Positions 6,880-31,046 of a stretch of 64,000 bases of DNA are shown one piece after another. Origin of the DNA: Lactobacillus sp. MRS-253-APC-2B. GTDB lineage: Bacteria > Bacillota > Bacilli > Lactobacillales > Lactobacillaceae. Numbering within the stretch: position 1 is the stretch's first letter; each line of letters begins with the position of its first letter. The translations under genes and the position numbers were made by a program. The notes beneath the pieces were generated by a model. That model was not told where the DNA came from. It made no database searches and saw only the letters and a program-made list of their open reading frames with translations. The stretch is from the NCBI RefSeq assembly GCF_012843675.1, contig NZ_JABAFO010000003.1:62001-126000 (forward strand), in the 5' to 3' direction.

Positions 6880-7866
<987 letters not shown>

Positions 7867-9242: not shown

Positions 9243-9280
9243 AAAAACCGTACCGGCAGCTGTCAGTACGGTTTATTTAT
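9243..9280. terminator. bidirectional terminator between msrB and melA
   Basis: The stem AACCGTAC...GTACGGTT is flanked by A- and T-rich tracts, between two convergent genes. Confidence 0.8.
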
Positions 9281-9291
9281 TGTTGATGCTA

Positions 9292-11505
9292 TTAGTCAAC
9301 GGCTTTGACGATAAACATATCAGCGTGGAAATCAGATGGTGCTTTTGGCGATTGCAGACGGCTCATGACACGTGGTACGAAATAGCCGGCATTCATCAAT
9401 TCGGCACCGGAGAAGACTTCCTGGCCATCATTGACCGTGTAGCGACGTTCTGGATCCAAGCCTTTAAAGTAATAGCGGATGTAGGCAGGGTTGGCTCCGT
9501 TTAGAATCTGATAGCGCATGCCAATGGCCGTTTTCTGATCAGGGCTGACGGTTTCCCAGCCATAGACGTTTTCGTTGGTGTCTGGCGTTTCTAGACGATA
9601 GAACGTTCCAAACTGGAAGAGCTTGCGATACTTCTTGTAAAAGGCGACCTGCTGCTTGATTTCGGCCTGTTCCTCATCACTAAGCTTAGTGACGTCCAGC
9701 TCATAGCCAAAGGCACCGAAGTAGGCGACTTTAGCGCGCATATCAATTGAGGTCAACCGGCCAACCTGATCATTTGGTACAGCTGAAACGTGGGCACCCC
9801 ACATTGAAGGCGTGTAGCCATAAGAGGTACCGTCTTGAATCTTGATGCGCTCAACGGCGTCAGTGTCATCGCTGCACCAGGCTTGTGGCGCATAGTACAT
9901 CATCCCGAGGTCAAAGCGGCCACCACCAGATGCACACGATTCAAACAAGACGTTCGGAAAGGCTTTGGTCAGGCGGTCATAGAGGTCATAGACACCCAGA
10001 ATATAGCGGTGCGAGAATTCCAATTGCTGATCGAAAGGCAGGTCGGCACCATACATTTCGGTGATGTTACGGTTCATGTCCCACTTGATGTAATCCAGCT
10101 TGGCATCTTGAATGATGTGGCTCATCAATTCAAACAAGTAGTCAACGACTTCCTTGCGGCTCATATCCAAGACGAATTGATGACGAGCCGGCGTCTGGCC
10201 GCGACCTGGCGTCTTGATCATCCATTCAGGGTGCGTTTCATAAAGCTTGCTGTCGATTGAGATCATTTCTGGTTCAAACCACAGCCCAAACTTCATGTCC
10301 AGATCATGGACGCGTTTGGCAAAGCCGGCAATGCCGTTGTTGAATTTCTTTTCGTCTACGAACCAATCACCCAAGCTAGAGCGATCGTTGTCACGGTGAC
10401 CAAACCAGCCATCGTCAAGTACAAACATTTCGATGCCTAATTCCTTGGCCCGTTCAACGATTGGCATCAGCTTGTCTTCCGTAAAGTCCATGAACGTGGC
10501 TTCCCAGTTGTTGATTAAAATTGGCCGTTCTTGATGGGCAAAGTGCGGGTTGATCAAGTGTTGAGCATAAAAGACACCCAATTGCTGAGAGAGCGCGTTA
10601 AAGCCGTTGTCAGTATAGCTGAGAATAGCCTCTGGCGTTTGGAACGACTGACCTTCAGCGAGCTTCCAGCCAAATTCATCAGGGTTGATACCGATCAAAA
10701 CGCGCGTGGTATCAAATTGGTCAACTTCGACCGAATCCAAAAAGTTGCCTGAGTAGACAAAGTTAAAGCCAAAAACAGCCCCTTGGTTATTGTCAGTGTG
10801 TGGCCGGGCCAGCATAAAGAATGGATTTTCCTGATGACTGGAAGCCGTCCGCAGACTCGAAATGCTTTGCGTACCTGGTCGCAGATGGCTGCGATGCAGA
10901 TGCCGTTCACGCGACCAGGAGCCGGCAAATTGGATAAAGTCGTAGTCTGCATCTGGCAGATCCAATTGCGCACTCAAGGCACGGTTCAAAAAGACGGTCT
11001 TACCGTGGTTGACAAACGTTGCACTGCGCACGATCACGTCTTCATCGGCAAAAACGGTATAGTGCAACTGCAGTTCCAGGTCGCCATCCATTAATTTAAC
11101 GGTCAGCGTTTGTGAATCATTGCTGTCATCGGCAAACGTTGAAGGCAGCTTTTCAAGGCGTTCCTTGCCGTCTTTGATTTCATAGTCGCGGTATTGGAAT
11201 TCCGAGGTCCGTGAGCCGTTTGGATACGTGATCTGAAAAGCAGGATAGCGGTAGTCGCCCTTGCCCAATCCAGCGTATTCCTGCTTTAGCAGCTCAGCTT
11301 GAAACTCAACGTCTTCATCGGTACGCGTGTTGGTACAGTCGTGTTCTTCACGCGTGTTGAGATTGGCATAGTCGTCTTTGAAGGGGATCTTTGGACCATA
11401 GTAGAGCTGTCCCAGTGACCCATCCTCGATAACGTGGAAGACATAGCTGGTGTGCTTGGTCTGCAGGTGAAACAGTTGATTGTTGGCATTAACTTGGATA
11501 CTCAT
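9292..11505 (-). CDS. melA: alpha-galactosidase (GH36)
   Basis: MelA hydrolyses terminal alpha-1,6-galactosyl residues of melibiose, raffinose and stachyose. The 737-aa length is typical of bacterial GH36. The nucleophile region is DYIKWDMNRNI and the acid/base Asp lies in SCASGGGRFDLG...WCSDDTDAVERI. There is no signal peptide, so it acts on imported sugar. I start at the ATG at 11505 (MSIQVNANN), preceded by GGAGGAA; an in-frame ATG at 11520 overlaps that site. It lies downstream of lacS, but a terminator stands between them. Confidence 0.95.
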   Translation of the reverse strand: MSIQVNANNQLFHLQTKHTSYVFHVIEDGSLGQLYYGPKIPFKDDYANLNTREEHDCTNTRTDEDVEFQAELLKQEYAGLGKGDYRYPAFQITYPNGSRTSEFQYRDYEIKDGKERLEKLPSTFADDSNDSQTLTVKLMDGDLELQLHYTVFADEDVIVRSATFVNHGKTVFLNRALSAQLDLPDADYDFIQFAGSWSRERHLHRSHLRPGTQSISSLRTASSHQENPFFMLARPHTDNNQGAVFGFNFVYSGNFLDSVEVDQFDTTRVLIGINPDEFGWKLAEGQSFQTPEAILSYTDNGFNALSQQLGVFYAQHLINPHFAHQERPILINNWEATFMDFTEDKLMPIVERAKELGIEMFVLDDGWFGHRDNDRSSLGDWFVDEKKFNNGIAGFAKRVHDLDMKFGLWFEPEMISIDSKLYETHPEWMIKTPGRGQTPARHQFVLDMSRKEVVDYLFELMSHIIQDAKLDYIKWDMNRNITEMYGADLPFDQQLEFSHRYILGVYDLYDRLTKAFPNVLFESCASGGGRFDLGMMYYAPQAWCSDDTDAVERIKIQDGTSYGYTPSMWGAHVSAVPNDQVGRLTSIDMRAKVAYFGAFGYELDVTKLSDEEQAEIKQQVAFYKKYRKLFQFGTFYRLETPDTNENVYGWETVSPDQKTAIGMRYQILNGANPAYIRYYFKGLDPERRYTVNDGQEVFSGAELMNAGYFVPRVMSRLQSPKAPSDFHADMFIVKAVD

Positions 11506-11533
11506 ATTAAATTCCTCCATGAATAAATGACAA

Positions 11534-11567
11534 ACAAAAAGCCCGACTGCTGCAGTCGAGCTTTTTT
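11534..11567 (-). terminator. terminator between lacS and melA
   Basis: Read leftward, AGCTCGACTGCAGCAGTCGGGCT followed by TTTTTG forms a strong hairpin just after the lacS stop and before the melA start. It should reduce read-through from lacS into melA. Confidence 0.8.
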
Positions 11568-11604
11568 AAGGCCAACCGACTTTTTGATCATTCAATTAGT
11601 CTAA

Positions 11605-13563
11605 TTAGTCTTTTTTGACTTCGATTTGCATAATGGTGTCGCCAACCTTGACTTCGCCATCTTTCTTGACGTAGGTCAAAGTATACTTAGGTGCCTTTTC
11701 GGACTTGGTAAAGGCAATCATAACCGTATCGTCATGACCAGCCTTCTTGATTGCCGGTGCCCAGAATTCCATCAGCTTTTCGCCGGCTGCAACGTGCTGG
11801 CCTTTGACGACATAGTTGATAAATCCAGTCCCACGCATCTGCACCGTATCAACACCGACGTGAATCAGAACCGGAACGCCATTGTTGGTTTCCAGACCGA
11901 TTGCGTGACGAGTAGTCGGGAAGTCTGCAACCACAGTTCCTGAGAATGGTGCAAAGACTTGCCCATCAGATGGCTTGATGGCAATACCAAGCCCCATCGT
12001 GCCATCAGCAAATGGCTTAGAGCCTACCTGAGACAGTGGCATCAAAGTACCGCTGACTGGTGCCTTGAAGTCGATGACCAGATCTTCAGCCAGGTTGGCA
12101 TCTTCAGCCAGTTCTTCCCGAACGCTGTCATTGCCTTCCAGGTGTTGGTGCCAAGATTGTTCCAGTTCGTCAACGATTTGAGCGTGCATCTTCTCATCCA
12201 GCTTAACCTTGCTCTTGAAGCACAGGACACCTAAAAGAATCAGAATTGCAGGAACGGCGAACATCATAAGCTTGAAGATTCCCGCACCGTGAGCCGTAAT
12301 GTCGGATGCCGTAGCACCAGAGATCATGCCAGCAGCCGTAGCTGTCATCCCAACGACACCGCCGGCAACGGCACCACCGAACTTGTCCAGCAGTGGACGA
12401 ACGGAAAGCGTAACGGCTTCGTCACGGTGACCAAGCTTCAATTGACCGTATTCAACCGAGTCAGTGATGATCATCAAAACAACCATGAAGATCAGTGGCT
12501 GTGGCAGCATGTAAATGGCACCACCAAGAATAACCATTGGCAGAGATTGACCGGCAAAGGCAAAGATTGCCAAACCAATCAACAGAACCAGGATTGAGTA
12601 ATAGAAGACCTTCATCCGACTGAACTTCTTAGCCAGAGCAGGGAACAGAGCAACCGTAACGGCACCAATAACGCCGTTGATTAGTGCATACAGCGTGTAG
12701 GTGCTTGCCCGACCCAGAATATAGGTGAAGTAGTACAGTTGGAAGGAATTAACGATTTGAACCCCAGTCGTGTAAACCAGGTAGGTAACAGCAATTGCCA
12801 TTAATTGGTCGTTGTGGAGCAGAACCCCAAAGACCTTCTTGAAAGTCGTGTTTTCCTTGTTTTCACGCAGTTCGTTCTTCTTTTCGTGCGTGAAAACACC
12901 AACTCCGCAGGCCGTGATTGCGGAAATCGCGGCAACGATTGCGGCAAAGGCAAACCAACCGCGGCTGTCACCGGAACCACCATTTGAGGAGAGCGAGAAT
13001 GCCAAAACGATTGGCATAACGACCACGCCGACCAGCTGACCACCAAGCGTGGAGCCAACCCGGGCAAAGGTAGCCGTCTTTTCACGTTCTGCCGAGTCAA
13101 ATGAGATGGCAGGGATCATTGACCAGAAAGCCACGTCGTTAAAGGAATAGAAGATATCCATCGTAATATATAAAATTGCAAATACGACGAGGTACAAAAC
13201 TGGATTCTTGTAGGTCAGACCCCACAGATTAGTGAACAGCAGGGAAATTGCAACGGCAGAAACGATACCACCGGCAACAACCCATGGCTTAAAGTGACCC
13301 CATTTAGTATCGGTCTTATCGATAACGTTACCGATAAATGGGTCAATTACCAATTCAACGATCCGCAGCACCATGATGGTAATCGTAATGAAAGAAACCA
13401 TGTGAGCTGCTTGGCCACCGCTGTTGCTGTTGAACAGGTGACCGGTAACAAACATCATAAAGTACGTTGACAGCATCCCGTAGAACATATCGTGCCCGAA
13501 AGCACCAAATGAATATGCTACTCGAGAAGCCATCGATTGTGATTTGGAACTCGCCTCATTCAT
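11605..13563 (-). CDS. lacS: GPH-family galactoside permease with C-terminal EIIA domain (LacS/RafP type)
   Basis: This 652-aa protein couples a 12-segment glycoside-pentoside-hexuronide transporter (about residues 1-460) to a PTS EIIA-like domain (about 490-652). The phosphorylatable His lies in VPVLIHVGVDTVQ, and FAPFSGTVV is typical of EIIA-Glc folds. LacS proteins import lactose, melibiose or raffinose with protons or by exchange for galactose; HPr phosphorylation of the EIIA domain tunes transport. Pairing with melA suggests an alpha-galactoside substrate. GGAGG precedes the ATG, and two cre-like sites lie upstream. Confidence 0.94.
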   Translation of the reverse strand: MNEASSKSQSMASRVAYSFGAFGHDMFYGMLSTYFMMFVTGHLFNSNSGGQAAHMVSFITITIMVLRIVELVIDPFIGNVIDKTDTKWGHFKPWVVAGGIVSAVAISLLFTNLWGLTYKNPVLYLVVFAILYITMDIFYSFNDVAFWSMIPAISFDSAEREKTATFARVGSTLGGQLVGVVVMPIVLAFSLSSNGGSGDSRGWFAFAAIVAAISAITACGVGVFTHEKKNELRENKENTTFKKVFGVLLHNDQLMAIAVTYLVYTTGVQIVNSFQLYYFTYILGRASTYTLYALINGVIGAVTVALFPALAKKFSRMKVFYYSILVLLIGLAIFAFAGQSLPMVILGGAIYMLPQPLIFMVVLMIITDSVEYGQLKLGHRDEAVTLSVRPLLDKFGGAVAGGVVGMTATAAGMISGATASDITAHGAGIFKLMMFAVPAILILLGVLCFKSKVKLDEKMHAQIVDELEQSWHQHLEGNDSVREELAEDANLAEDLVIDFKAPVSGTLMPLSQVGSKPFADGTMGLGIAIKPSDGQVFAPFSGTVVADFPTTRHAIGLETNNGVPVLIHVGVDTVQMRGTGFINYVVKGQHVAAGEKLMEFWAPAIKKAGHDDTVMIAFTKSEKAPKYTLTYVKKDGEVKVGDTIMQIEVKKD

Positions 13564-18509: not shown

Positions 18510-18684
18510 GCTTAATTAAATAAACCATTCCAAGGTCGTAATTCGAGTTATCGGGTTACGGCTTTTTGATATTTTAACACTCATTTTGATATGTGACGAT
18601 TATGTTTTTAATAAAACCCTAATTTTGAATTTTAAAATGCCTTAATATCAGTGTTTTCAATAGATATATGACTATGAAAAAACA

Positions 18685-18709
18685 CTGAGGGACATAAAAG
18701 GGGAAAATC
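18685..18709. repeat. left attachment site (attL) of the mobile element
   Basis: The core AAAAGGGGAAAATC (18696-18709) recurs exactly at 30253-30266. The upstream flanks are also similar (CTGAGGG here, TTGAGGG there). The core overlaps the integrase stop codon (TGA on the minus strand, 18708-18710), which is typical of int genes lying next to their att site. Confidence 0.75.
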
Positions 18710-19847
18710 AGATATCAAAATCATTAATCAGACCGCTGAACTGCTCAGCGGTCTTTTTTGTTATATGCAAGTAGATCTGCCTCGTGATTGCTGAATCCTT
18801 ATGACCTAATCGCTTTGAAATCAGTTCGATCGGCATACCTTTTTCAGCTAATTTTGAAGCATGCGTATGACGGAAGATATGAGTTGATAGTGGCTTAGTC
18901 ATACCAAGGGCATTTTGGACTTTTTTAAGGTGATTATCTATTGAAAGGGGGTGAAGAAAAATGCCGGTTTTAGTTTCTCTACTAAACAGAATGTCATCTG
19001 GTTGTTTATCCAAGCTGTACTGCTGATAGATCTTAACCGCTTTTTCAGGAAGAAGAATAGTACGATTGCTACTTTGGGTTTTAGGAGTGTCACTGATTGT
19101 AAAATCGGTCTTTAGTCTCTTTGAATACTCCAATGTGCAATTAATTTTGACGTACCATTTATCATCTTGCTGAAATACCTTTTTGACTTGAAGCGCTAGT
19201 ATCTCGCCGATACGCATACCTGTAAGGTACTGCCACAGTAAGGCATCAGCATAGATTGGATTAATTTCTCGAACAGCATTTAAAACGCTCATTGCTTCAT
19301 CATCTTCCAAGTATTTATCTTCAATATCCTTAGCAGAATTGTTGCGTTTCCGATTAATCTCAAGTCGGCCGATTGGGGCTGCTATATAGTCATGTCGATA
19401 CGCATAACGCATTAGCTGATTGAGTTTGTTCTTGATCATTCCAGTGTAGGCGTTTTTATAGCCATGCTGATAAAGCAGAGCTTCTAGTGTGTTGACAAGA
19501 TATTTATTGGTTATTTTGGAAACGAGAATCTGCATATTGAAGTTTTTCTGGATTATTCCCTTGATAGTCTGCCATGAAGCAAATGAAGAGGGCTTAACGG
19601 TTTGATGATAGTACTGATTGAACTCTTCAATCAACTCGCCAAAAGTAACGCCTTCTTTGATATGGCCGTCCTGAAGCCGCCGGAGTTTTTCTTCGATCCG
19701 TTTATTCAGGGCTCGCTGAGCTAACTTCCGCGTGGAGTTCGTCTCCTTATCCATCGTGATTGAGACGCGTGTGTACTTCAGCGTCAATGGGTTTTTGAAT
19801 TGTTCGACAAATTTGACTTTGCCGGTTTTCGTGGGTTCAGTCCACAT
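18708..19847 (-). CDS. int: site-specific tyrosine integrase
   Basis: This 379-aa phage-type integrase has an N-terminal arm-binding region, a SAM-like core-binding domain (about residues 65-160) and a catalytic domain. The catalytic residues are Arg212 in TGMRIGEIL, His323-x-x-Arg326 in HIFRHTHASKL, His349 in RLGHKDS and Tyr359 in RQIYLHI. All are present, so it should be active. It reads towards and ends in attL. It resembles integrases of Tn916/phage-like elements of lactobacilli. No excisionase gene is next to it. Confidence 0.93.
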   Translation of the reverse strand: MWTEPTKTGKVKFVEQFKNPLTLKYTRVSITMDKETNSTRKLAQRALNKRIEEKLRRLQDGHIKEGVTFGELIEEFNQYYHQTVKPSSFASWQTIKGIIQKNFNMQILVSKITNKYLVNTLEALLYQHGYKNAYTGMIKNKLNQLMRYAYRHDYIAAPIGRLEINRKRNNSAKDIEDKYLEDDEAMSVLNAVREINPIYADALLWQYLTGMRIGEILALQVKKVFQQDDKWYVKINCTLEYSKRLKTDFTISDTPKTQSSNRTILLPEKAVKIYQQYSLDKQPDDILFSRETKTGIFLHPLSIDNHLKKVQNALGMTKPLSTHIFRHTHASKLAEKGMPIELISKRLGHKDSAITRQIYLHITKKTAEQFSGLINDFDI

Positions 19848-19987
19848 GATTGATCCTTCTTTCTATGAATTTACGGCTGCCGGGCACGCGCATAGGTTGA
19901 AGAACCAATCGTAATTATATCTAGATGTCAAAACAATACAACTTTCGCCACAAAACATTATTAAAGAGTAAACAAAAGCAGGCAATA

Positions 19988-20020
19988 AAAAAAGCTGAGT
20001 GGTGCAACACTCAGCAAGCC
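19988..20020 (-). terminator. hairpin with minus-strand T-tract between int and the primase gene
   Basis: GCTGAGTG...CACTCAGC is a perfect 8-bp stem. On the minus strand it is followed by TTTTTTT, so it would stop leftward transcripts before int. It may insulate int. Confidence 0.6.
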
Positions 20021-20057
20021 GGCCTAATGATATTGCTCTTTAGAAAGGAAGAACAAT

Positions 20058-21716
20058 ATGTACAGTAATAATTATAACCAATTTAAGCATCAAAATGAAG
20101 AGGATCAATTAGCTTTAAACGTTGATACTACAAAAAATGAGGAATTAAACATTCAATCAGAACCATATACGATTAGTTATCTGCTGCAACAATTAAAACA
20201 AGCACGTGTGCAATATCTGGCAACAAAAAATGATAGTAATGACAACAGTGATAATGAAAAGAATAAGAAAAAGGTTTACCGTTTGAGTCCGCTTGAAACA
20301 GCCTACATTATAACCGAATATTGTCATTTTTGTTGGTTTGATAATGGTGATGATGAACGATTACATTTATCTACTTATGATCCAGAAGCAGGTATCTATC
20401 GTGATGGTGAGCGTCAGTTGAGACGATTTATTTTTGCGGTTGAACCATCCTACAAAGAAAGTGGGGCAACAGACGTGATTTATAAGCTTAAACAAATTAA
20501 AGGTGGTATGGTTCCGGTAAATCCGATGAGTAATCCAAGGTATGTTCCTGTGGGAAACGGAATTGTAGATCTTCAGCAGAAAATTATCTTGCCATATGGT
20601 CCAAATTGGTTTATCAAGACAAAGATTGAGACACCATTACCTACTGCGGAATATGGTAGCGGTCGAGTTCTTAAGCCAGTACCTTTATTGAGACCAAAGG
20701 AACCAGTATTTAAAAATCTCGATGGTACAAATTGGACCTTTAATAATTGGCTAGGATCAATTGCTTGTGATGACGAAGAAATCATAACTGTCTTATGGCA
20801 AGTACTACATGTGGTTTGCAACACTAATAAGGCACTCAAGTTGCACAAAGCAATTTTTCTACTTGGTAATGCTACTGGGAATAATGGTAAAGGTACGTTT
20901 CAGATGTTAGTTAAAAATCTAGTAGGTTATCATAATTTTGGATTGAAAAAAGTAGCCCAGTTCGAAAAACGTTTTGCTATGGAATCATTGGTTAATAAAT
21001 CAGTAATTATTGGCGATGATAACCCAGCAAATATAGTAATTCAAGATAAGTCAAATTTTAACAGTGTTATTACAGGCGATGAAGTTACTGTAGAACCAAA
21101 GGGACAGCCAGAATATCCTGCACAAATTCATGCGGTTGTAATTCAAAGCTGTAATAAGATGCCTCGCTTTGAAGATGATACTGGTGTCTATCGCCGATTA
21201 TTGATTGTGCCTTTTAATGCAGATTTTAATGGTACTGTTGAAAACACAGCAATCAAAGATCAGTATTTGGCTGATAAAAAGCTACTGCAATATGTGTTAT
21301 ATACGGCGCTAATAGAAAAAGGTAACTTTAAGAACTACTTAAATGCCACGGCTTCAATTAATGCATTGAATCAATATGAACACACTAACAATAGCGTATG
21401 GACGTTTATTGATGATGTATTTATTGATGCTAGTGCAGCACCATGGCTACAAGATATGAAGCGGATTCCAGAAGCCTATTTATACGGAATTTGGGTGAAC
21501 TATGCTAAGGAATACGGTTATCGGGTTGGTAACCAAAGTGATTTTCTTGAAAAGGCATTAACTAGGTTAAACAAGCTATTTCCGGAACGACAATATCAGC
21601 GGTCTAAGGTACGAACGCTAAAGGTAGACCAACAAATCATTAAGGATCATCAACAAGATGATTTAGGAAATGTACCAAAAAAGTTTCCAGATGTAAACCA
21701 ATCCATTATTTATTAA
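20058..21716 (+). CDS. SF3 helicase / P4-type phage-plasmid primase C-terminal protein
   Basis: This 552-aa protein has a D5-N-like region and a superfamily 3 helicase domain. Walker A is GNATGNNGKGT (residues 270-280), Walker B is around IIGDDN (about 315), and motif C with the arginine sensor lies in VVIQSCNKMPRFEDDTGVYRRLLIVPF. Proteins of this type unwind origins of phages, satellites and integrative elements. An archaeo-eukaryotic primase active site is not evident in the N-terminal 150 residues, so it is mainly a helicase. The repeat cluster directly downstream is a likely origin. Codon use is AT-rich. Confidence 0.88.
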   Translation: MYSNNYNQFKHQNEEDQLALNVDTTKNEELNIQSEPYTISYLLQQLKQARVQYLATKNDSNDNSDNEKNKKKVYRLSPLETAYIITEYCHFCWFDNGDDERLHLSTYDPEAGIYRDGERQLRRFIFAVEPSYKESGATDVIYKLKQIKGGMVPVNPMSNPRYVPVGNGIVDLQQKIILPYGPNWFIKTKIETPLPTAEYGSGRVLKPVPLLRPKEPVFKNLDGTNWTFNNWLGSIACDDEEIITVLWQVLHVVCNTNKALKLHKAIFLLGNATGNNGKGTFQMLVKNLVGYHNFGLKKVAQFEKRFAMESLVNKSVIIGDDNPANIVIQDKSNFNSVITGDEVTVEPKGQPEYPAQIHAVVIQSCNKMPRFEDDTGVYRRLLIVPFNADFNGTVENTAIKDQYLADKKLLQYVLYTALIEKGNFKNYLNATASINALNQYEHTNNSVWTFIDDVFIDASAAPWLQDMKRIPEAYLYGIWVNYAKEYGYRVGNQSDFLEKALTRLNKLFPERQYQRSKVRTLKVDQQIIKDHQQDDLGNVPKKFPDVNQSIIY

Positions 21717-21733
21717 AAGGTTATCAAAAAAAT

Positions 21734-21891
21734 GGTAACGCGGTAACGATATCGCCTAATCCGTTGGGAGAGTAAGGTTCAATCACGTTACCGATTGAGT
21801 AACGCTAGGTAACGTTACCGTACGTTACCAATTGAGTAACGCTGAATTCCCATGGGAGAGTAAGCATGAACGCAAACGTTACCGCGTTACC
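21734..21891. repeat. iteron-like cluster, candidate replication origin
   Basis: Ten copies of the hexamer GTAACG (or its complement CGTTAC) fall within 158 bp. Two 22-bp direct repeats with one mismatch lie at 21785-21806 and 21822-21843, and the palindrome GGTAACGTTACC is at 808-819 of the same kilobase. TGGGAGAGTAAG also occurs twice (21765-21776, 21853-21864). The position right after an SF3 helicase gene suggests an origin recognised by it. Confidence 0.65.
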
Positions 21892-21907
21892 TAATTTGTA
21901 ATTGTTC

Positions 21908-21990
21908 TCCGGCGTGGTCGCCGGAATACCCATCAATGAGAACGGTGTTGCGTACCGCAAACCTAGCCTCATTGATGGGTTAATTGATAA
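21908..21990 (+). repeat. oriT-like inverted-repeat unit, copy A (upstream of mobC)
   Basis: It contains three hairpins: CCGGCG-TGGT-CGCCGG (21909-21924), a long-range stem ACCCATCAATGAG/CTCATTGATGGGT (21928-21940 with 21968-21980) and a small TTGCG-TAC-CGCAA in its loop. The placement directly before mobC is where origins of transfer lie in pC221-type mobilization modules. A near-identical copy in inverse orientation lies at 24282-24360. Confidence 0.65.
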
Positions 21991-22047
21991 TAAAAATGTC
22001 TGCTGAAAAACTATAAGTCAGCATGCTATCGAATAGGAGGAAAAAGT

Positions 22048-22386
22048 ATGCCAAGATCGGACAATCATCAGGTCAACATTCGTGTTAATGAGGCAGAATA
22101 CGCCAAAATTCAAGCCTCAGCGCAAATGATGGGCCTTTCTGTACCAAAGTATTGCAAGCATCTTATAATGCAATCCAAGCTAAGGGAGCCGAAGTTTTCT
22201 GAAGATGAATATCACCAGATAAGGGTCGACTTATTGCGTATTGGGAATAACATAAACCAGATGGCTCGGCGGCTGAATCAAGCTTACAATGAGAGCGAAA
22301 TCACATCAGAAGAATTGGCTATATTAAACATCACATTGAGCAAGCTAGATGATGAGGTGGCAATGGTATGGCAACAATTAAGATGA
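22048..22386 (+). CDS. mobC: mobilization accessory protein MobC
   Basis: This 112-aa protein has an N-terminal ribbon-helix-helix (NHQVNIRVNEAEYAKIQASAQ) and the MobC-family C-terminal part LLRIGNNINQMARRLN. MobC binds near oriT and helps the relaxase open the strands. AGGAGGAAA precedes the ATG. Its 3' end overlaps the relaxase start by 19 bases, as is usual for these pairs. The oriT-like unit lies immediately upstream. Confidence 0.9.
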   Translation: MPRSDNHQVNIRVNEAEYAKIQASAQMMGLSVPKYCKHLIMQSKLREPKFSEDEYHQIRVDLLRIGNNINQMARRLNQAYNESEITSEELAILNITLSKLDDEVAMVWQQLR

Positions 22387-23825
22387 ATCGTGCTAAGAGT
22401 GCAGCCGCAGCTATCAGCTATGCGTTGGGAAAGAATCGCCTAAAGCAGGATACAAAGGACTGGCTGATAGAACATGGTTGCCCCTCAGAGAGTCTAAAAA
22501 ATAATGATCGGGCAGTGGTTAGAAGTGGGATCAATGTCAGCCCGACTCATGCTAAGGTTCAGATGAAGGTAGTTAGGAATCATGCTAATGGTGATACTGT
22601 CAAGAATCAGGCTATCAGAATCATTCAATCATTCTCACCTGATGATCTGGATATCACGAAGCCTGAGAATTGGCAAAAATGCAACGATATTGGTTATGAG
22701 TTTGCGCGGCGTGCTTTTGGTGGCAGTAAGTTTGATGATACAGACTATCCGCCATATCAAATTGCTATCTATACCCATGTTGATGGAAAAGGACATAAGC
22801 TGCATAACCATATCATTATCAACAAGACCAATCTCGATGACAATAAGCAATGGCACGTTGAAAATTTGAATGATGAATGGCTTTCATTCCGCGATATTAA
22901 CGATGAGGTTTGCCGTGAATTTGGCTTGAAAATTCCACAAGAGCGTTCAAAGCAGGTCAAAAAGACTATTAGCGAACGGGAACTTGAGCTTAAAGGCCAG
23001 TATGTATGGAAAAATGACTTACGCTCGCGGATTGATCAAGCACTGGACGAAATTCAGAAGAATAATATCAGTCTGGAAGAAGCCTTGAAATCCAGAGAGG
23101 TTGACTTGAGGCGGCGTGGTCAAAACGGCATATCATTTGCCTTTGTTGATGATGAAGGCAAGAAGCGGATCAGCCGTGGCCAACGTTTAGGAACTAAATA
23201 TGAAAGGAAGACTATTGATGACTACGAACAAGGAATTCAACAACAACGACAGCAACAGCAAGCAGATGAGCCAAGAAATGAACCAGATTCAAGAGGAGTT
23301 CATGCAATCGCTAGACGACAAGCAATTCAATCAGTACGTTACCATCAACAACATCTGGAACGAAGCCTTAGCGAAGCAAGATCAAGAGCTGACCGAATTA
23401 GAAAACGAAAACAAGCAGTTGCTAAGCTTATTAAGGCAATTCAACGAGCAATTGACCGATCACTTGCCATCATAAAGCAGCTCAAGGCTAACCAAGGACT
23501 CCTTCATGAAAGGATAAGGCAATCTAATGCCAATAGGGGTAGGAAATTCGGAACGGTAATCAATGGTCAATGGCAAGTACTGTCAGAACATGACGTGATC
23601 AGTCGGGCGCTGAATATCATTCAACAAAAATATGAGTCAGATCAGGCAATGGAAACAGTGGTTGACTATCTGCGCAACCAAAATTCCAATTCGCCAGAGA
23701 AACGGCTGAACATGGCGATTAAGATATTGGAAAATAAGGAACATCTCAAGCTTCAAGAAATTGACAAGAGTAGTTCTGTTACGCCGCCAAAGCCTTTTAT
23801 CAAGAAAAAGGCCAAGGAGCGCTAG
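22368..23825 (+). CDS. mobA: MobA relaxase (MOBP type)
   Basis: This 485-aa relaxase nicks oriT and pilots the transferred strand. The probable catalytic Tyr is residue 18 (AAAISYALG). The metal-binding triad is His137, His146 and His148 in HVDGKGHKLHNHIIIN. The N-terminal part aligns by eye with pC221/MobA-type enzymes; the C-terminal half is a basic, Gln-rich coiled coil. GAGGTG is 8 bases upstream of the ATG. A second reading frame inside it encodes a MobB-like protein (23218-23475). Confidence 0.92.
   Translation: MATIKMNRAKSAAAAISYALGKNRLKQDTKDWLIEHGCPSESLKNNDRAVVRSGINVSPTHAKVQMKVVRNHANGDTVKNQAIRIIQSFSPDDLDITKPENWQKCNDIGYEFARRAFGGSKFDDTDYPPYQIAIYTHVDGKGHKLHNHIIINKTNLDDNKQWHVENLNDEWLSFRDINDEVCREFGLKIPQERSKQVKKTISERELELKGQYVWKNDLRSRIDQALDEIQKNNISLEEALKSREVDLRRRGQNGISFAFVDDEGKKRISRGQRLGTKYERKTIDDYEQGIQQQRQQQQADEPRNEPDSRGVHAIARRQAIQSVRYHQQHLERSLSEARSRADRIRKRKQAVAKLIKAIQRAIDRSLAIIKQLKANQGLLHERIRQSNANRGRKFGTVINGQWQVLSEHDVISRALNIIQQKYESDQAMETVVDYLRNQNSNSPEKRLNMAIKILENKEHLKLQEIDKSSSVTPPKPFIKKKAKER
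23218..23475 (+). CDS. mobB: MobB-like protein nested within mobA in another frame
   Basis: This 85-aa ORF lies wholly inside mobA in a different frame. It has an ATG preceded by AAGGAAG. It reads as a well-behaved acidic coiled-coil protein (SQEMNQIQEEFMQSLDD, then ELTELENENKQLLSLLRQF) rather than frame noise. Nested mobB/mbeB/mbeD genes are known in ColE1 and in staphylococcal pC221-type plasmids, where they aid mobilization. Assignment is by position and composition, not by sequence identity. Confidence 0.65.
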   Translation: MTTNKEFNNNDSNSKQMSQEMNQIQEEFMQSLDDKQFNQYVTINNIWNEALAKQDQELTELENENKQLLSLLRQFNEQLTDHLPS

Positions 23826-23858
23826 CAATAATAGAATAAGGAAACAGAGGTATTAAAC

Positions 23859-24281
23859 ATGACATCACGGTATGATATTGCAACAATCAAAAAGCAGCTG
23901 GCCGCAGCCGAACAGCATGACAAGGAAATCTACGGCGAAAAAGTACGGAAACTGCTACTGGAGAAGACCAATCTTGATAGCTTAAAGGACGTACTCCATG
24001 ATTATGACATCATTGTTAAGCCCAAAAAATCAAAAGAAAAGCCGTCTAACCAATCCAATGAGGCTAAGATGGCTGAGCAGAGCAAAGGTGCAGGAAGTAC
24101 ATCTCAGGAGCAAGCGGTCAGCATGACTGATGCCTTAGATGGTAACGGCAACTCGGTAATTAATGATGAAGAATGGGTATCTGATGACAAAGATGAAGTC
24201 GATGATGATGATTACATCGATGAAGTTCAAGATAATGATAATTTTGATTGGGGAATGGGAGAGCAAGATAATAATAATTAA
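23859..24281 (+). CDS. hypothetical protein with very acidic C-terminus, 140 aa
   Basis: The N-terminal half is charged and helical (ATIKKQLAAAEQHDKEIYGEK). A low-complexity Lys/Ser/Gln linker follows, then a tail dominated by Asp/Glu and Asn (DDKDEVDDDDYIDEVQD). AAACAGAGG lies upstream. It is the last gene of the mob module and ends directly before the second oriT-like copy. I do not recognise the family. DNA mimicry or an accessory transfer role would be speculation. Confidence 0.65.
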   Translation: MTSRYDIATIKKQLAAAEQHDKEIYGEKVRKLLLEKTNLDSLKDVLHDYDIIVKPKKSKEKPSNQSNEAKMAEQSKGAGSTSQEQAVSMTDALDGNGNSVINDEEWVSDDKDEVDDDDYIDEVQDNDNFDWGMGEQDNNN

Positions 24282-24360
24282 TCACCCGTCAATGGGGTTA
24301 GGTTTGCGGTACACGCAACACCGTTCTCATTGACGGGTATTCCGGCGACCATGCCGGACA
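24282..24360 (-). repeat. oriT-like inverted-repeat unit, copy B (inverted relative to copy A)
   Basis: Its reverse complement matches copy A over about 75 bp. It keeps the same hairpins, including ACCCGTCAATG/CATTGACGGGT (24284-24294 with 24328-24338). The stem carries a compensated change from copy A (A-T pair replaced by G-C), so the pairing is conserved even where the sequence is not. Confidence 0.7.
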
Positions 24361-24392
24361 AAAGCGTCCCATGATATTAGCAGGAACTGAAT

Positions 24393-24482
24393 GATGCCTG
24401 AACGCTCATTACTCAATCGCGTTCCTGCTTAGCGTTCTAAGCTCTCAACGATCGCTTTTCGCTCACGTTGCTAGCAAGAACG
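24393..24482 (+). repeat. 90-bp direct repeat, copy 1
   Basis: It is nearly identical to 24536-24625, with about 53 bp between them. Each copy ends with an imperfect hairpin bounded by GTTCT and AGAAC. Confidence 0.75.
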
Positions 24483-24535
24483 GCGGATCATTACATTTCT
24501 AATGCTTTAAAATTCAAACCTTCGCATGAGAATAT

Positions 24536-24625
24536 GACGCCTGAACGCTCATTATTCAATCGCGTTCCTGCTTTGCGTTCTAAGCTCTCAACGATCGCTT
24601 TTCGCTCACGTTGCTAGCAAGAACG
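24536..24625 (+). repeat. 90-bp direct repeat, copy 2 (with a diverged third copy after it)
   Basis: It matches copy 1 over its full length with a few differences. A third, diverged copy begins around 24633 (AACGCTCATTATTCAATCGC is shared) and decays after about 40 bases. Confidence 0.7.
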
Positions 24626-25086
24626 AAGCACCTTAACGCTCATTATTCAATCGCGTTCTTGTGCTAGTGTTCTAAATGGCCAAGCTTCGCTAACCGCTCG
24701 CTTGCCAATTAAGAACACTATATTGAAGGCAAGCACCCCCCTTTGTAGACTATTACATAGTCCACACGGCTGCTTGCAAGAGGGACTGCTTCGCTCCCCC
24801 TTGACCCCCTCAGACAAACTTTTAAGCAAAAAGTTTGATCAAAAAGCTCGGCCTAATCGACTCTTCAAGTCAATTACTAGCCTCGCTAACGACAACAATT
24901 TGCGCGAAATGATTTCATCATTTCAGCAAAAAAGTTGTCGTTTTTTCGTTCTGCAGCTATGAGCGAATATGCTTCATACAGCTTGCAGTCAATCATTAGG
25001 TCATCATATGAAAACCGCTACCTTAATTTCAGGTAGTGACCATACCTAATGCTAGAAGCTTTATCTTCCAACATGGTGCCGAATGA

Positions 25087-25113
25087 TATAATTACACTAG
25101 TTTGATTTAAGGA
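25087..25113 (+). promoter_or_regulatory. promoter and ribosome site of the restriction-modification gene
   Basis: An extended -10, TGATATAAT (25084-25092, TATAAT at 25087-25092), is followed by AAGGAG 10 bases before the ATG at 25123. The -35 is weak. Confidence 0.6.
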
Positions 25114-25122
25114 GTTTTTCAG

Positions 25123-26193
25123 ATGAAACGTGGTGTTGAAGCAACCGAAGCCAAGACAAGACAACAACTTGCAAAAGAATTTGTTGATACTTGGACTCAG
25201 CCTGATAAGGGTAAGGAAGATGCAGATCGTCAAACATTTTGGAACGATTTATTGCATCGAGTGTATGGAATCGTTAATTATTATGACTATGTAACCTATG
25301 AGAAGGACGTTCGTGTTAAGGATAGTATGGGTAAGATAACCACCAAGCGAATTGATGGCTATATTCCAAGTACAAGGACAATGATTGAGCAAAAAGGACG
25401 AGGACGTGCCTTAGATAAGCCTGAACCGCAGTCTGATGGGGTAATGCTGACTCCATATGAGCAGGCAAAGCGATATGCTAACTTCCTACCAAATTCAGAA
25501 CAACCAAGATGGATTATTGTTTCTAATTTTGATCAGATTGATATCCATGATATGGATCACCCTCTTGATGAACCAAAAACTATCATGCTTACTGAATTGC
25601 CAAAGCATTTTAAAGACCTGGAATTCATGGTGGATATCCATAAGCAACAGATTATCAATGAAGAGCAGGTATCATTTAAGGCTGGCGAGCTGGTAGCTAA
25701 AATCTATAATGAGTTGGCAAAGGCATACGCTGAGCATGCTGATTTGAGTGATACGCATATCCAGAGGAGCCTGAATGTTCTAATTGTTCGCTTAGTTTTT
25801 CTGCTGTACGTTGATGATACTCAATTATTTGGCAATGAAGATATGTTTCAAGCCTTTCTGGAGCGTCGAGAGCCACGTGATATTCGGCGCGACCTGATTA
25901 GCCTGTTTGAGGTACTAAACACACCTTTAAATGAACGAGATCCATTTATGGACGAGGAATTTGCGGCCTTTCCATACGTCAATGGGGGTATGTTTGCCAA
26001 TGAGGATATAGTAGTTCCACAATTCACTCAAGAACTCAGAGATCTGATCCTTGATGATGCTAGTCGTGGATTCAATTGGTCAGGCATTAGCCCAACGATT
26101 TTTGGGGCCGTATTTGAATCAACTTTAAACCCTGAAACGCGGCGTTCTGGGGGTATGCATTATACCTCGGTAGAGAATGCTCATGTACGGTAA
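25123..26193 (+). pseudogene. N-terminal fragment of a type IIL-like restriction/DNA methyltransferase, interrupted by tet(W)
   Basis: The first 350 or so residues match the nuclease and helical parts of single-chain class I DNA methyltransferases of the MmeI/YeeA kind. The N-terminal nuclease-like part includes RIDGYIPSTRTMIEQKG. The region ends with ISPTIFGAVFESTLNP and GGMHYTSVEN, which in intact proteins leads straight into the SAM-binding motif DPACGSG. Here the frame stops after a few foreign residues (AHVR), so the methyltransferase core is missing. The C-terminal part is found beyond tet(W) at 28813-29604. The gene is probably inactive. Confidence 0.85.
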
Positions 26194-26515
26194 AGAAGCA
26201 AGCAACCGAAAACAATAGATAGACCGCCAGCACTACACTATTCCGAACCAAAGACCAAAAGATAAGCATTTTGAGAAAATCTAAACTTTTGGATTTTCCT
26301 ACAATGCCGACTACGGCGGAATCCCTCCCACTCCTTATATATTTCTTTCTGTATACATTGAATTTGTATTTAGTAAAATGCAGACAACACCACGGATCGG
26401 CTTTTGGCTGGACAATTCCAACCAAACACCGCAGCAGACAGTAGAAACCATTCTGAACGTTAGGAAGCCGGTATGATTGTTACATATAAGGGGAAGAAAA
26501 ATTTCTTTTAGATAC
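26194..26515. other. non-coding upstream part of the tet(W) module
   Basis: About 320 bp separate the broken methyltransferase gene and the tet(W) promoter. I see no gene, transposase remnant or terminal inverted repeat. The left junction lies near 26175-26190. Confidence 0.55.
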
Positions 26516-26544
26516 TTGTTTTCCTAAAACTGATGTGATATAAT
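26516..26544 (+). promoter_or_regulatory. tet(W) promoter
   Basis: The -35 TTGTTT (26516-26521), 17-bp spacer and -10 TATAAT (26539-26544) carry a TG extension. It drives the leader peptide and tet(W). Confidence 0.8.
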
Positions 26545-26573
26545 AATTCAATTCCAGAAAAGGAGTAAAAAAT

Positions 26574-26597
26574 ATGCGGCAAGGTATTATTAAATAA
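26574..26597 (+). CDS. tet(W) leader peptide, 7 aa
   Basis: ATG to TAA encodes MRQGIIK, preceded by AAGGAG. Ribosomal-protection genes of the tet(M)/tet(O)/tet(W) group have a short leader peptide upstream of attenuator hairpins. Tetracycline-slowed or non-translating ribosomes alter folding and allow read-through. The structure here appears complete. Confidence 0.7.
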   Translation: MRQGIIK

Positions 26598-26765
26598 AAC
26601 TATAATCAAATAGTGGGAACAAAGGATTATGATAGTCCCTTTTGTAGGGGCTTAGTTTTTTGTACCCAATTTAAGAATACTTTTGCCTTATCAATTTTGA
26701 CATATCCCCAAAAACAGCACTCACAAACAGGTGTATGCTGTATATGTGTATGTCCGCAAATTATC

Positions 26766-26805
26766 ATCCCCAGTGGTAAAAGTATTTTACTGCTGGGGAT
26801 TTTTA
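26766..26805 (+). terminator. attenuator hairpin before tet(W)
   Basis: ATCCCCAG...CTGGGGAT with an inner GGTAAAA/TTTTAC pairing is followed by TTTTTA. It lies between the leader peptide and the tet(W) start and is the expected attenuation terminator. Confidence 0.75.
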
Positions 26806-26838
26806 TGCCCTTCGGGGCAGTAAAGGGAGGACAATCAC

Positions 26839-28758
26839 ATGAAAATAATCAATATTGGAATTCTTGCCCATGTAGACGCTGGAAAGACGACCTTGACGGA
26901 GAGCCTGCTATATGCCAGCGGAGCCATTTCAGAACCGGGGAGCGTCGCAAAAGGGACAACGAGGACGGACACCATGTTTTTGGAGCGGCAGCGTGGGATT
27001 ACCATTCAAGCGGCAGTCACTTCCTTCCAGTGGCACAGATGTAAAGTCAACATTGTGGATACGCCCGGCCACATGGATTTTTTGGCGGAGGTGTACCGCT
27101 CTTTGGCTGTTTTAGATGGGGCCATCTTGGTGATCTCCGCTAAAGATGGCGTGCAGGCCCAGACCCGTATTCTGTTCCATGCCCTGCGGAAAATGAACAT
27201 TCCCACCGTTATCTTTATCAACAAGATCGACCAGGCTGGCGTTGATTTGCAGAGCGTGGTTCAGTCTGTTCGGGATAAGCTCTCCGCCGATATTATCATC
27301 AAGCAGACGGTGTCGCTGTCCCCGGAAATAGTCCTGGAGGAAAATACCGACATAGAAGCATGGGATGCGGTCATCGAAAATAACGATAAATTATTGGAAA
27401 AGTATATCGCAGGAGAACCAATCAGCCGGGAAAAACTTGTGCGGGAGGAACAGCGGCGGGTTCAAGACGCCTCCCTGTTCCCGGTCTATTATGGCAGCGC
27501 CAAAAAGGGCCTTGGCATTCAACCGTTGATGGATGCGGTGACAGGGCTGTTCCAACCGATTGGGGAACAGGGGAGCGCCGCCCTATGCGGCAGCGTTTTC
27601 AAGGTGGAGTATACAGATTGCGGCCAGCGGCGTGTCTATCTACGGCTATACAGCGGAACGCTGCGCCTGCGGGATACGGTGGCCCTGGCCGGGAGAGAAA
27701 AGCTGAAAATCACAGAGATGCGTATTCCATCCAAAGGGGAAATTGTTCGGACAGACACCGCTTATCCGGGTGAAATTGTTATCCTTCCCAGCGACAGCGT
27801 GAGGTTAAACGATGTATTAGGGGACCCAACCCGGCTCCCTCGTAAAAGGTGGCGTGAGGACCCCCTCCCCATGCTGCGGACGTCGATTGCGCCGAAAACG
27901 GCAGCGCAAAGAGAACGGCTGCTGGACGCTCTTACGCAACTTGCGGATACTGACCCGCTTTTGCGCTACGAGGTGGATTCCATCACCCATGAGATCATTC
28001 TTTCTTTTTTGGGCCGGGTGCAGTTGGAGGTTGTTTCCGCTTTGCTGTCGGAAAAATACAAGCTTGAAACAGTGGTAAAGGAACCCACCGTCATTTATAT
28101 GGAGCGGCCGCTCAAAGCAGCCAGCCACACCATCCATATCGAGGTGCCGCCCAACCCGTTTTGGGCATCCATCGGACTGTCTGTTACACCACTCCCGCTT
28201 GGCTCCGGTGTACAATACGAGAGCCGGGTTTCGCTGGGATACTTGAACCAGAGTTTTCAAAACGCTGTCAGGGATGGTATCCGTTACGGGCTGGAGCAGG
28301 GCTTGTTCGGCTGGAACGTAACGGACTGTAAGATTTGCTTTGAATACGGGCTTTATTACAGTCCGGTCAGCACGCCGGCGGACTTCCGCTCATTGGCCCC
28401 GATTGTATTGGAACAGGCATTGAAGGAATCAGGGACGCAACTGCTGGAACCCTATCTCTCCTTCACCCTCTATGCGCCCCGGGAATATCTTTCCAGGGCT
28501 TATCATGATGCACCGAAATACTGTGCCACCATCGAAACGGTCCAGGTAAAAAAGGATGAAGTTGTCTTTACTGGCGAGATTCCCGCCCGCTGTATACAGG
28601 CATACCGTACTGATCTGGCCTTTTACACCAACGGGCAGAGCGTATGCCTTACAGAACTGAAAGGGTATCAGGCCGCTGTCGGCAAGCCAGTCATCCAGCC
28701 CCGCCGTCCAAACAGCCGCCTGGACAAGGTGCGCTATATGTTTCAGAAGATAATGTAA
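26839..28758 (+). CDS. tet(W): ribosomal protection protein Tet(W), tetracycline resistance
   Basis: Tet(W) is an EF-G-like GTPase that removes tetracycline from the ribosome. The 639-aa length is exact for the family. G motifs are [10 protein letters not shown] (G1, residues 10-19), RGITIQAA (G2), DTPGHMDF (G3) and NKID (G4). The C-terminal EF-G domains IV-V are present and the frame is intact. I recognise it as Tet(W) rather than Tet(O/M) by extensive recalled identity. Base composition is clearly more GC-rich than its surroundings, fitting a recent origin from another genus. GGGAGG precedes the ATG. Confidence 0.97.
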
Positions 28759-28812
28759 CGTCTTGCGCAATGCAAGCGTTCATTGCTGGCTATTGCGAAA
28801 TATCATTGATAA

Positions 28813-29604
28813 AATCAGTATCAGAATGGAGGACATCTTATTTTGTCGCAAGAAGAGGCAGACAAGCTTATAGATACCGAACCTAAGGCAAAAAAATATA
28901 TAAAAAGATTCATGATGGGCAACGAATTTTTAAATGACATTCCTAGGTATTGTTTATGGTTAGTTGGTATCTCACCTAAAGAATTAAGGAGTATGCCACT
29001 AGTTTTAAAACACGTTGAAAAATGTAGAGAAAATCGCTTGTCGGGTGCAGCAGATAGGCAAAAGTTAGCAGCAACACCACATCTATTTCGCGAAACTAGA
29101 AATCCTGATAATTTTATTGCAATTCCCGTTGTATCTTCGGAACGAAGGGCATATATTCCAATGGATTACTTATCATCAGATGTAATTGCAGGTAATAAAC
29201 TATTTATTTTACCTGATGCTACTAAGTATGATTTTGGTATCTTAGAATCTATTGTTCATATGTCATGGATGCGTATGGTAGCAGGCAGACTGGAAACTCG
29301 TTATAGTTATTCTAAAACTTTGGTATATAATGACTTTTCATGGCCAAATGTTAATAAAATGCAACGCGATAGGATTACTGAGACCGCCCAAAGTATCTTG
29401 GACGCACGAAAGCTCTATCCTGATAGCTCATTGGCTGATTTATATGACCCGTTGACGATGCCAATTGAACTTCGGAAAGCACATGAAGCTAATGATAAGG
29501 CCGTATTACAAGCTTATGGACTTAAGCCGAGTGCTACCGAAGCCGAGATAGTGCAGCATCTATTCAAGATGTACGAGAAGCTAACTGCCAAGGATGATAA
29601 ATAG
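28813..29604 (+). pseudogene. C-terminal fragment of the type IIL-like restriction/DNA methyltransferase
   Basis: The frame opens at 28813 and reads NGGHLILSQEEADKLI, then RFMMGNEFLNDIPRYCLWLVG and FIAIPVVSSERRAYIPMDYLSSDVIAG. These are the conserved target-recognition region of MmeI/YeeA-type methyltransferases. It is the continuation of the gene broken at 26193, with the SAM and catalytic (NPPF) segment absent. A TTG at 28843 behind GGAGG could still start translation of a 253-aa target-recognition fragment. Whether it is made is unknown. Confidence 0.85.
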
Positions 29605-29645
29605 CTATATTCTCACTTTCTGGTCTGTAGATGGTATAATCATTA

Positions 29646-29812
29646 GTAATGAATTGGGGCTTGATATGGTCAGCTGAGGACCCACATTAAACTAAAAACC
29701 GCTGACTCGTTGCTTGTTTCTGGGAATCAGCTTTGCTGTACGTCAAGCGTTAAGTAAAAACCTTATAGATACAGGAGTCATTCAATCATGAATGGCTCTT
29801 TTTTTGCTATGA
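29646..29812 (+). ncRNA. candidate small RNA downstream of the methyltransferase remnant
   Basis: An extended -10 TGGTATAAT ends at 29640, and a strong terminator (GAGTCATTC...GAATGGCTC then TTTTTTT) lies at 29774-29812. Between them are possible stems (GTCAGC with GCTGAC) and no ORF longer than a few codons. The function is unknown. Confidence 0.45.
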
Positions 29813-30242
29813 GTGATTTTGAAATGATCAACAGCTCAGGTAGACTGATTTCAGAACGTCTCAGAGCCGATTTAAGATCTATTTTTAGCCTATGAAGACA
29901 GAAATTTGTACTGTTTAAGAGATCTTAAATATCGAGTCTCTATCTTATATAGCGATCCTCAATTGTCGCTTGCCTATACTTCTATTAAGATGTGACACCC
30001 TTTATATAGCCAATTATCTTAAAATCAGAATAAAGTTTTATTGAAAAACTAGTGGCATTTGTTCTTTGATTAGGGGTAAATATGCTATACTAATCGCAAC
30101 CAATTAACTCGGTTGTTGATTGGATAATAAAAACCGTTACCCTCATTGTGGTAACGGCCATGCCCGACAGTTTGATTCAGTTATTTTTTCCTATTAACCG
30201 CCAAGATTGGCCGTAAGGTTCTTCAGTATTCTTTAAGGGATA

Positions 30243-30266
30243 TTGAGGGGGAAAAAGGGGAAAATC
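30243..30266. repeat. right attachment site (attR)
   Basis: AAAAGGGGAAAATC at 30253-30266 is identical to the attL core, with a similar 5' flank (TTGAGGG). Confidence 0.75.
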
Positions 30267-30455
30267 TATAACATTTCATGACGTTATATGATGATCTGAT
30301 TGGTCGAGAAAACTTATAATATCAGCGATTTGATAGCATATGATGATATATGTTTTACCCTTTTAAGGTATTAATAAATTTCTCATCTTTTCTTGCCAAG
30401 GTGCTGACTTCTCCCATATAATTAACTCGCATCAAACTATTTTGGAGGGATATTT

Positions 30456-31046
30456 ATTTATACGATTCGCAAGGCCGAGCCAGAAGACGCCGGCCAGATA
30501 GTACCGTTAATGTCTTTGATTTATGATGAAATGGAGCTGGAGGAGTTTGAATCGGTTCCCGATGAAGACCCCCAGAGGATGATTTATAATGCTTACCGCG
30601 ACCGAGCACTGCTTGGCTATGTGGCAACCACGTTTGTCGCAGAAGTCGATGGTCGAGTCGTGGGGATGGCGTTTGGCTATCCAGACAACAACGAAACTGC
30701 GGTCAACCGAGTATATCAAGAAGCCGCGGCCCCAATTCCATCAATTCGCGATGTTGATTTCTTCGCGGATCCGGAGTCATTTGCCAACGAGTTTTATCTG
30801 GATTCACTGGCAGTTGATGCCGATTATCGTGGTATGGGGATCGCAACGGCTTTGATTGATGCGATTATTAAACATGCCGCTGCTTTGGAATATGAAACGA
30901 TCGGTTTAAATGTCGACGTCGCCAATCCAAAGGCAGAACGGCTATACCGTCGCTTGGGATTTGACGATGCAGGTCAAATTATGATTGGTGATCACTGGTA
31001 TCGCCACCTGCAACGATCAACTTTCCAAGTCTTGTCAACCGAATAA
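30456..31046 (+). CDS. GNAT-family N-acetyltransferase with probable ATT start
   Basis: The 196-aa GNAT protein begins IYTIRKAEPEDAGQIVPLM when read from an ATT at 30456. GGAGGG lies 7 bases upstream of that codon. The first ATG (30510) would remove the first beta strand, which is conserved in the family. The acetyl-CoA site is VDADYRGMGIATAL, and the end has VANPKAERLYRRLGF. Substrate unknown. The start is therefore either a rare ATT initiation or a point mutation of an ATG. It is the first host gene after the element. Confidence 0.8.
   Translation: MYTIRKAEPEDAGQIVPLMSLIYDEMELEEFESVPDEDPQRMIYNAYRDRALLGYVATTFVAEVDGRVVGMAFGYPDNNETAVNRVYQEAAAPIPSIRDVDFFADPESFANEFYLDSLAVDADYRGMGIATALIDAIIKHAAALEYETIGLNVDVANPKAERLYRRLGFDDAGQIMIGDHWYRHLQRSTFQVLSTE

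Follow-up and report, generated by a model that had tools for sequence, protein, structure and literature searches.

The stretch of DNA analysed here (hereafter, the window) comprises 64,000 nucleotides from Lactobacillus sp. MRS-253-APC-2B (positions 62,001 to 126,000 of NZ_JABAFO010000003.1) and lies within a single contig, number 23, of a draft genome that comprises 1.98 Mb in 54 contigs. The genus is taken to be Limosilactobacillus: the match in G025, a genome of this genus, stops where it also stops on the contig of locus L021, Candidatus Limosilactobacillus merdigallinarum. Within the window, the tetracycline-resistance gene tet(W) interrupts an MmeI-type (type IIL) restriction-modification gene, of which the 5′ piece spans positions 25123-26177 and the 3′ piece positions 28826-29604. 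The DNA that separates the two pieces is a remnant of IME_Rho_tet, a mobilizable gut element with a serine recombinase. The interrupted locus contains the following features:

25123..26177, + strand: MmeI-type gene, 5′ piece, with a PD-(D/E)XK nuclease domain and a helical spacer; stops at the AA core, which lies in the E-N codons of HYTSVEN
26176..28825, + strand: IME_Rho_tet remnant, which starts with the AA core of the 5′ end and extends 67 bp beyond the tet(W) stop codon; right edge placed by comparison with locus L025 and others
26179..26193, + strand: element-derived codons A-H-V-R-stop that close the 5′ MmeI reading frame, from the translation of the joint
26180..26198, + strand: 19 bp within the 5′ terminal inverted repeat of IME_Rho_tet, exact and found once in the window, with 0 expected by chance; in complete copies, its mirror forms the right end
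26601..26782, + strand: leader-like region upstream of tet(W), resembling Rfam sRNA_0030 (E 6e-9; 50.9 bits, under the gathering score of 123)
26839..28758, + strand: tet(W), encoding a ribosomal protection protein, complete, 639 amino acids (aa) (NF033148, 1284 bits; cut-off 1100)
28826..29604, + strand: MmeI-type gene, 3′ piece, with the target-recognition domain (from profile position 34) and the C-terminal domain; first in-frame codons N-G-G-H-L-I-L-S
28828..28845, + strand: GGAGG (28828-28832) and TTG (28843-28845), ordinary MmeI-gene codons by comparison with relatives

The two pieces of the MmeI-type gene were readily identified at the protein level. The open reading frame (ORF) at 25123-26193 contains the Pfam domains MmeI_N (E 6e-33) and MmeI_hel (E 2e-17), and the ORF at 28843-29604 contains MmeI_TRD (E 6e-59, profile positions 34-206 of 207) and MmeI_C (E 8e-28). 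For both pieces, the top PADLOC profile is PDLC03598 (912 positions), of which the first piece spans positions 4-315 and the second one positions 666-911. The intact MmeI-type protein of pLME300 from Limosilactobacillus fermentum (WP_011100840; 932 aa) is collinear with both, matching the first piece with residues 3-347 (70% identity in BLASTP) and the second one with residues 681-931 (67% identity). Origin of the pieces from two different genes was considered and ruled out, because both are collinear with the same intact proteins and with the same profile; thus, the initial annotation of the locus as one MmeI/type IIL gene split by tet(W) is borne out. Given the extreme domain E-values and the base-exact left junction, chance can be excluded.

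The segment that is missing from the split gene is its catalytic middle, as also proposed in the initial annotation. The N6-adenine methyltransferase domain was detected by Pfam in neither piece, whereas in the intact pLME300 protein MmeI_Mtase occupies residues 375-631, with the S-adenosylmethionine (SAM) motif DPACGSGNF at 392 and NPPF at 513, all of which falls in the gap. Alignment of both fragments to intact MmeI-type homologs, suggested at the same time, placed the right joint at (D/N)GG codons; the left joint is base-exact. In pLME300, pLRI01 and locus L003, the AA core and the DGG codons lie 988, 1009 and 1003 bp apart, respectively; measured against these three relatives, 329-336 codons are lost here. 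The large loss was therefore recognized correctly, and the previous estimate of 270-320 residues was slightly low.

The 5′ piece retains the nuclease motif D78...E89-Q-K91; the catalytic residues of MmeI itself are given as D70, E80 and K82 in the text of PMC4833311. The target-recognition and C-terminal domains are present as well, but on a fragment apart from the nuclease piece. The locus is a broken type IIL gene and no member enzyme of that type. Because the 5′ piece includes neither the methyltransferase nor the target-recognition domain, the split gene should no longer support either restriction or modification. Each of the two MmeI pieces has a single match in the genome, both in the window, and the same holds for tet(W). 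An intact core elsewhere, which the initial annotation had named as one of two points that could speak against a lost catalytic middle, did not turn up: no further methyltransferase core of the MmeI family was found in this genome, in a search that lacked a positive control there.

The 3′ piece had been thought to possess a plausible TTG start behind GGAGG. However, the same letters encode, in frame, ...GGHLILSQEE..., where the relatives have DGGALILS, DGGALILT or DGGNLILS, and GATGGAGG occurs in the pLME300 and pLRI01 genes; the supposed signal thus consists of in-frame MmeI codons that are kept in relatives. The TTG is not a purpose-built start, but translation from it may be possible. No promoter-like or terminator-like site was detected at 28700-28900, a weak negative, as shuffled sequences give only 0.3-0.4.

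The tet(W) gene and its leader are whole, and resistance is therefore expected. In eight plasmid records (those with a match covering at least 94% of the query), the DNA of tet(W) is 97.4-99.8% identical. Apart from the leader-like RNA, Rfam searches of the module yielded just two weak, chance-level matches. The modules of Limosilactobacillus reuteri pLR581 and pTE15, L. oris unnamed4 and Streptococcus phage phi-SsUD.1 are 99.4-99.6% identical to that in the window and share its left edge, whereas their left sites and right breaks are different. In a Corynebacterium plasmid (NZ_CP069569.1; L026), tet(W) is interrupted by an IS3-family transposase gene. In another locus (L103, on contig 16 of genome G420), the region upstream of tet(W) is split, with the first 166 bp located approximately 2 kb downstream of the rest on the same contig, as if rearranged.

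We compared the module against 23 other loci. In 22 of these, the left edge falls at the base matching 26176. The 22 loci represent 16 left-flank groups, the flank in the window being additional, and the flanks from different groups are, on average, 29% alike, with the maximum of 50% (last 30 bp). Five loci (L090, L091, L098, L101 and L104) have one related gene as the site, and in the case of L101 this is a Pfam Maff2 gene. Loci L090-L094 were retrieved by searching for the left edge itself and thus support the position of the break, not its frequency. The inverted repeat used here was taken from complete copies of the element (below), not from the published 21-bp motif, and 663 bp separate the AA core from the start codon (ATG) of tet(W). 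In the MmeI relatives, GA(G/A)-AA-(C/T) is found at the insertion point in all eight places where the SIEN motif was found (L003, L004, L006, L020, L027, L028, L029 and L030), some of these genes not being intact. Thus, the left joint coincides to the base with the 5′ end of IME_Rho_tet at an AA core, and the left side is a site-specific insertion. Among the loci retrieved by left edge, an IMG/VR contig (L092, left end at 709 after reversal) carries a stretch of approximately 70 bp that is 93% identical to the left end of IME_Rho_tet, followed by ORFs that by eye resemble MerR regulator and ABC transporter genes and then by one similar to an ORF in the complete element; it is an IME_Rho_tet left end with cargo other than a tet gene.

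Five complete copies of IME_Rho_tet were found in four genomes (G565, G803 with two copies, G492 and G494). In each of these, the left end is followed by tet(W), additional ORFs, a serine recombinase and finally a right end that mirrors the left one, ...AG(T/C)A, beside AA. The recombinase ORF consists of 538-539 aa in four copies and of only 470 aa in one of the G803 copies, which also has an added ORF that by eye is transposase-like. MobC, the relaxase and the recombinase were assigned by Pfam in one G803 copy; in the other complete copies, the ORFs were paired by eye and the recombinase ends were located by BLASTN. Four copies are 10.8-12.1 kb long, and the fifth one, in G492, lay across two fetched stretches. 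Separate searches with the two flanks of the G492 copy against the Pfam Maff2 model, which has 70 positions, gave matches to 1-41 and 43-70; just the core-bearing codon falls between the two matches, so the insertion occurred without loss. Since these flanks lose nothing and only the core codon is split, the insertion core of IME_Rho_tet is the AA dinucleotide. We also examined a second complete copy (G803, with a permease-like target) for loss-free insertion and dropped the case, with a weak match to GntP_permease in one flank and no permease model in the other. A self-moving tet(W) cassette or intron was likewise abandoned as an explanation once complete elements with a serine recombinase turned up.

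IME_Rho_tet has been described recently (Sidibe, Doublet and Leclercq, Microb Genom, February 2026; PMC12904643). In the text of that paper, 504 complete and 1,090 partial copies with 21-bp terminal inverted repeats are reported; for 80% of the copies with tet(W), the gene is placed approximately 656 bp from the 5′ boundary, MAFF2 ORFs are the main insertion site, and partial copies are enriched in Lactobacillus and Limosilactobacillus. The published gene order resembles that of the complete copies analysed here. The copy in the window agrees with this description in the type of its 5′ end, with the terminal inverted repeat, in the tet gene located approximately 656 bp away, and in belonging to the Lactobacillaceae, where partial copies are found. 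In contrast, it lacks the signature relaxase, the serine recombinase and the 3′ end with its terminal inverted repeat, and its target is a type IIL gene rather than the usual MAFF2 ORF. In the sense of that paper, the copy in the window is a partial IME_Rho_tet, and tet(W) in the type IIL gene is a further case of a type of event that has been described recently. A term search of the main text of PMC12904643 for restriction, truncat and deletion gave no hits. None of the literature matches listed was about tet(W) within a gene of the MmeI type; Table S1 of PMC12904643, which was outside this search, may include the copy in the window.

The right joint is of a different kind. The window tracks the other copies to position 28825 and then runs on as ATGGAGGACATCTTATTTTGTCGC; in frame, the joint reads N-G-G-H-L-I-L-S where the relatives have D-G-G-A-L-I-L-S. 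Only the right joint is irregular, and it shows no site-specific end. Searched with up to 2 mismatches, the window and the genome contain, in place of a 3′ repeat of IME_Rho_tet, just the reverse strand of the 5′ repeat, although in the genome a reversed control pattern also had one match. No recombinase of the IME_Rho_tet kind was found in this genome, the best match being 28% over 134 aa. Complete copies extend approximately 8-9.5 kb beyond tet(W). For the truncated copies, we measured the right breaks as the length of the common sequence from a marker near the end of tet(W):

20-21 bp past the marker: L097, L105 and L107
77 bp: L026
93 bp: the window
107 bp: L025
116 bp: L024
147 bp: L023
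160 bp: L095
233 bp: L103
about 265-274 bp: L022 and L096
at most about 443 bp: L104, which breaks somewhere before a prgI-like ORF at that point

Thus, in the 12 right-truncated loci and the window, the breaks are located from 20 to at most approximately 443 bp past the marker, and at least eight of them are distinct. In two further loci, L093 and L106, the sequence leaves the common part (at 76 and 289, respectively) and then matches the recombinase gene.

Taken together, these observations make it very probable that IME_Rho_tet inserted site-specifically into the MmeI-type gene of a host genomic island and that a deletion then removed the right side of the element along with about a third of the gene. 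The directly observed parts of this history are the domains and the missing segment, the identity of the left end, the AA core in the relatives, and the absence of the right end and of the recombinase. Insertion first and deletion second is the most economical sequence, given that only one of the two joints is site-specific, and this order is inferred. Under this scenario, the MmeI-type gene would have been cargo of a separate integrase- and relaxase-encoding island before the insertion. A copy of IME_Rho_tet, with tet(W) at its left end and MobC, the relaxase and the large serine recombinase located rightward, would have inserted at the AA in the Glu-Asn codons of the HYTS(I/V)EN motif of this gene. 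A later deletion would have joined the sequence 67 bp downstream of the tet(W) stop codon with the (D/N)GG codons located at the target-recognition domain, taking away the right side of the element (approximately 8-9.5 kb in complete copies), including the recombinase and the right end, plus approximately 330 codons of the gene. With the recombinase and the right end absent, tet(W) should no longer excise via the serine recombinase and could travel only with the host island.

Several observations do not fit this history comfortably. No intermediate was seen, neither this gene carrying a complete element nor one that had lost less; the closest lineage, in which the tail of tet(W) runs into an XRE-like ORF, was likewise not seen as a complete element, and a scan of viral_contigs for the downstream sequence returned 0 matches. 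The truncated copies end within approximately 0.45 kb of the end of tet(W), a pattern poorly predicted by random deletion. Moreover, L093 and L106 are not right truncations but internal deletions, the former with both ends kept and the latter extending to about the right end. On the left side, L107 is the sole exception to the common edge, its match beginning inside the module at 26540; the insertion motif was not found in the relative L005 (G032), and in the distant L010/L019, E-V-N replaces I-E-N, with AA still in the Asn codon. Loss-free insertion is supported in one copy only (G492). Neither the exact right joint nor the number of bases shared there can be fixed, the nearest intact gene being only approximately 70% identical, and the control match in the search for the 3′ repeat also belongs here.

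The clustering of the right breaks bears on an alternative in which an already right-truncated tet(W) unit arrived, its left end being joined by a recombinase acting in trans and its right end closed illegitimately in the same event. All 12 right-truncated loci and the window break within at most approximately 443 bp of the marker, although complete copies run on for approximately 8-9.5 kb, and the breaks, at least eight of which are distinct, also agree with such an arrival. However, the truncated copies may not be independent (L022, L096 and L097 have a common left site), and homologous recombination in tet(W), shared ancestry or selection for tet(W) alone could produce a similar picture. 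One-ended arrival at this locus seems unlikely. More generally, it is improbable that truncated IME_Rho_tet units reach new sites through one-ended events in which target DNA is lost at the right; if they did, this would explain the combination of a perfect left end with a short stub past tet(W) at unrelated sites.

The initial annotation considered the locus to be a replacement rather than a simple insertion. This is correct with regard to the net loss of the middle of the gene; as a mechanism, replacement is not supported, since the left joint is the 5′ end of IME_Rho_tet at an AA core. A one-step replacement, in which a tet(W) fragment joined by short homology or illegitimately on both sides would have swapped out the methyltransferase core, accounts for the net outcome and for a right joint without a site-specific end, but a random joint is not expected to hit the very base that marks the edge of the element in 16 other, unrelated places and to do so at an AA core, which renders this course of events quite implausible. 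Although the genome is a draft in 54 contigs, a false join of two contigs is hardly credible, given that the region lies within one contig, the left element end is base-exact, and the gene pieces are in order and in one orientation.

The preferred history, site-specific insertion followed by deletion, also changes the interpretation of the loss of the MmeI-type gene. The initial annotation presented it as a trade of modification for resistance; this is not supported, as the left end of the element is found at 16 other unrelated sites, and the loss accordingly looks collateral. The locus provides a base-level history of a tet(W) copy in a gut Limosilactobacillus, with one mobile element inside the defence gene of another and the loss of the defence gene as a side effect. 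It also shows that tet(W) 'cassettes' are explicable without a transposition mechanism of their own.

The host genomic island lies between a gene that by eye is universal-stress-protein-like and a GNAT gene, and encodes the following:

18616..30363, no strand: host genomic island, putative integrative mobilizable element; ends approximate
18708..19847, - strand: tyrosine integrase (Pfam Phage_integrase, E 3e-24)
20058..21716, + strand: P4-family primase-like protein (TIGR01613, 189 bits; cut-off 108.7)
22048..22386, + strand: NikA/MobC-like protein (Pfam NikA-like, MobC)
22368..23825, + strand: relaxase (Pfam Relaxase)

Two genomes of the same genus, G003 and G027, have an empty site, in which the left flank to 18615 adjoins the right flank from 30363 (G003) or 30374 (G027). 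A 14-bp direct repeat is present at 18696-18709 and 30253-30266. With the integrase, the relaxase and the empty site in relatives, the island has these hallmarks of an integrative mobilizable element and may still be able to move. Its relaxase shows only weak similarity to the one encoded by a complete copy of IME_Rho_tet (36% over 42 aa). A sister element on contig 12 of the same genome (L128, about 3149-11701) contains a 379-aa integrase ORF and a relaxase that is 72% identical over 376 aa. It carries neither the MmeI pieces nor tet(W), because the single matches to these in the genome are all in the window; its cargo includes an ORF that by eye is GtrA-like.

The intergenic region before the MmeI gene contains repeats of 31-92 nt (at 24397-24661 of the window), with a 97% identical pair at 24391 and 24534, and a 49-nt inverted repeat pairs 21905-21953 with 24313-24361. 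At 30440-30520, the GNAT gene beside the island has a strong GGAGG and no ATG, GTG or TTG near it; the letters there, ATTTATACGATTCGC, are identical in G003 and G027, so that the gene may use a rare start codon, for example ATT.

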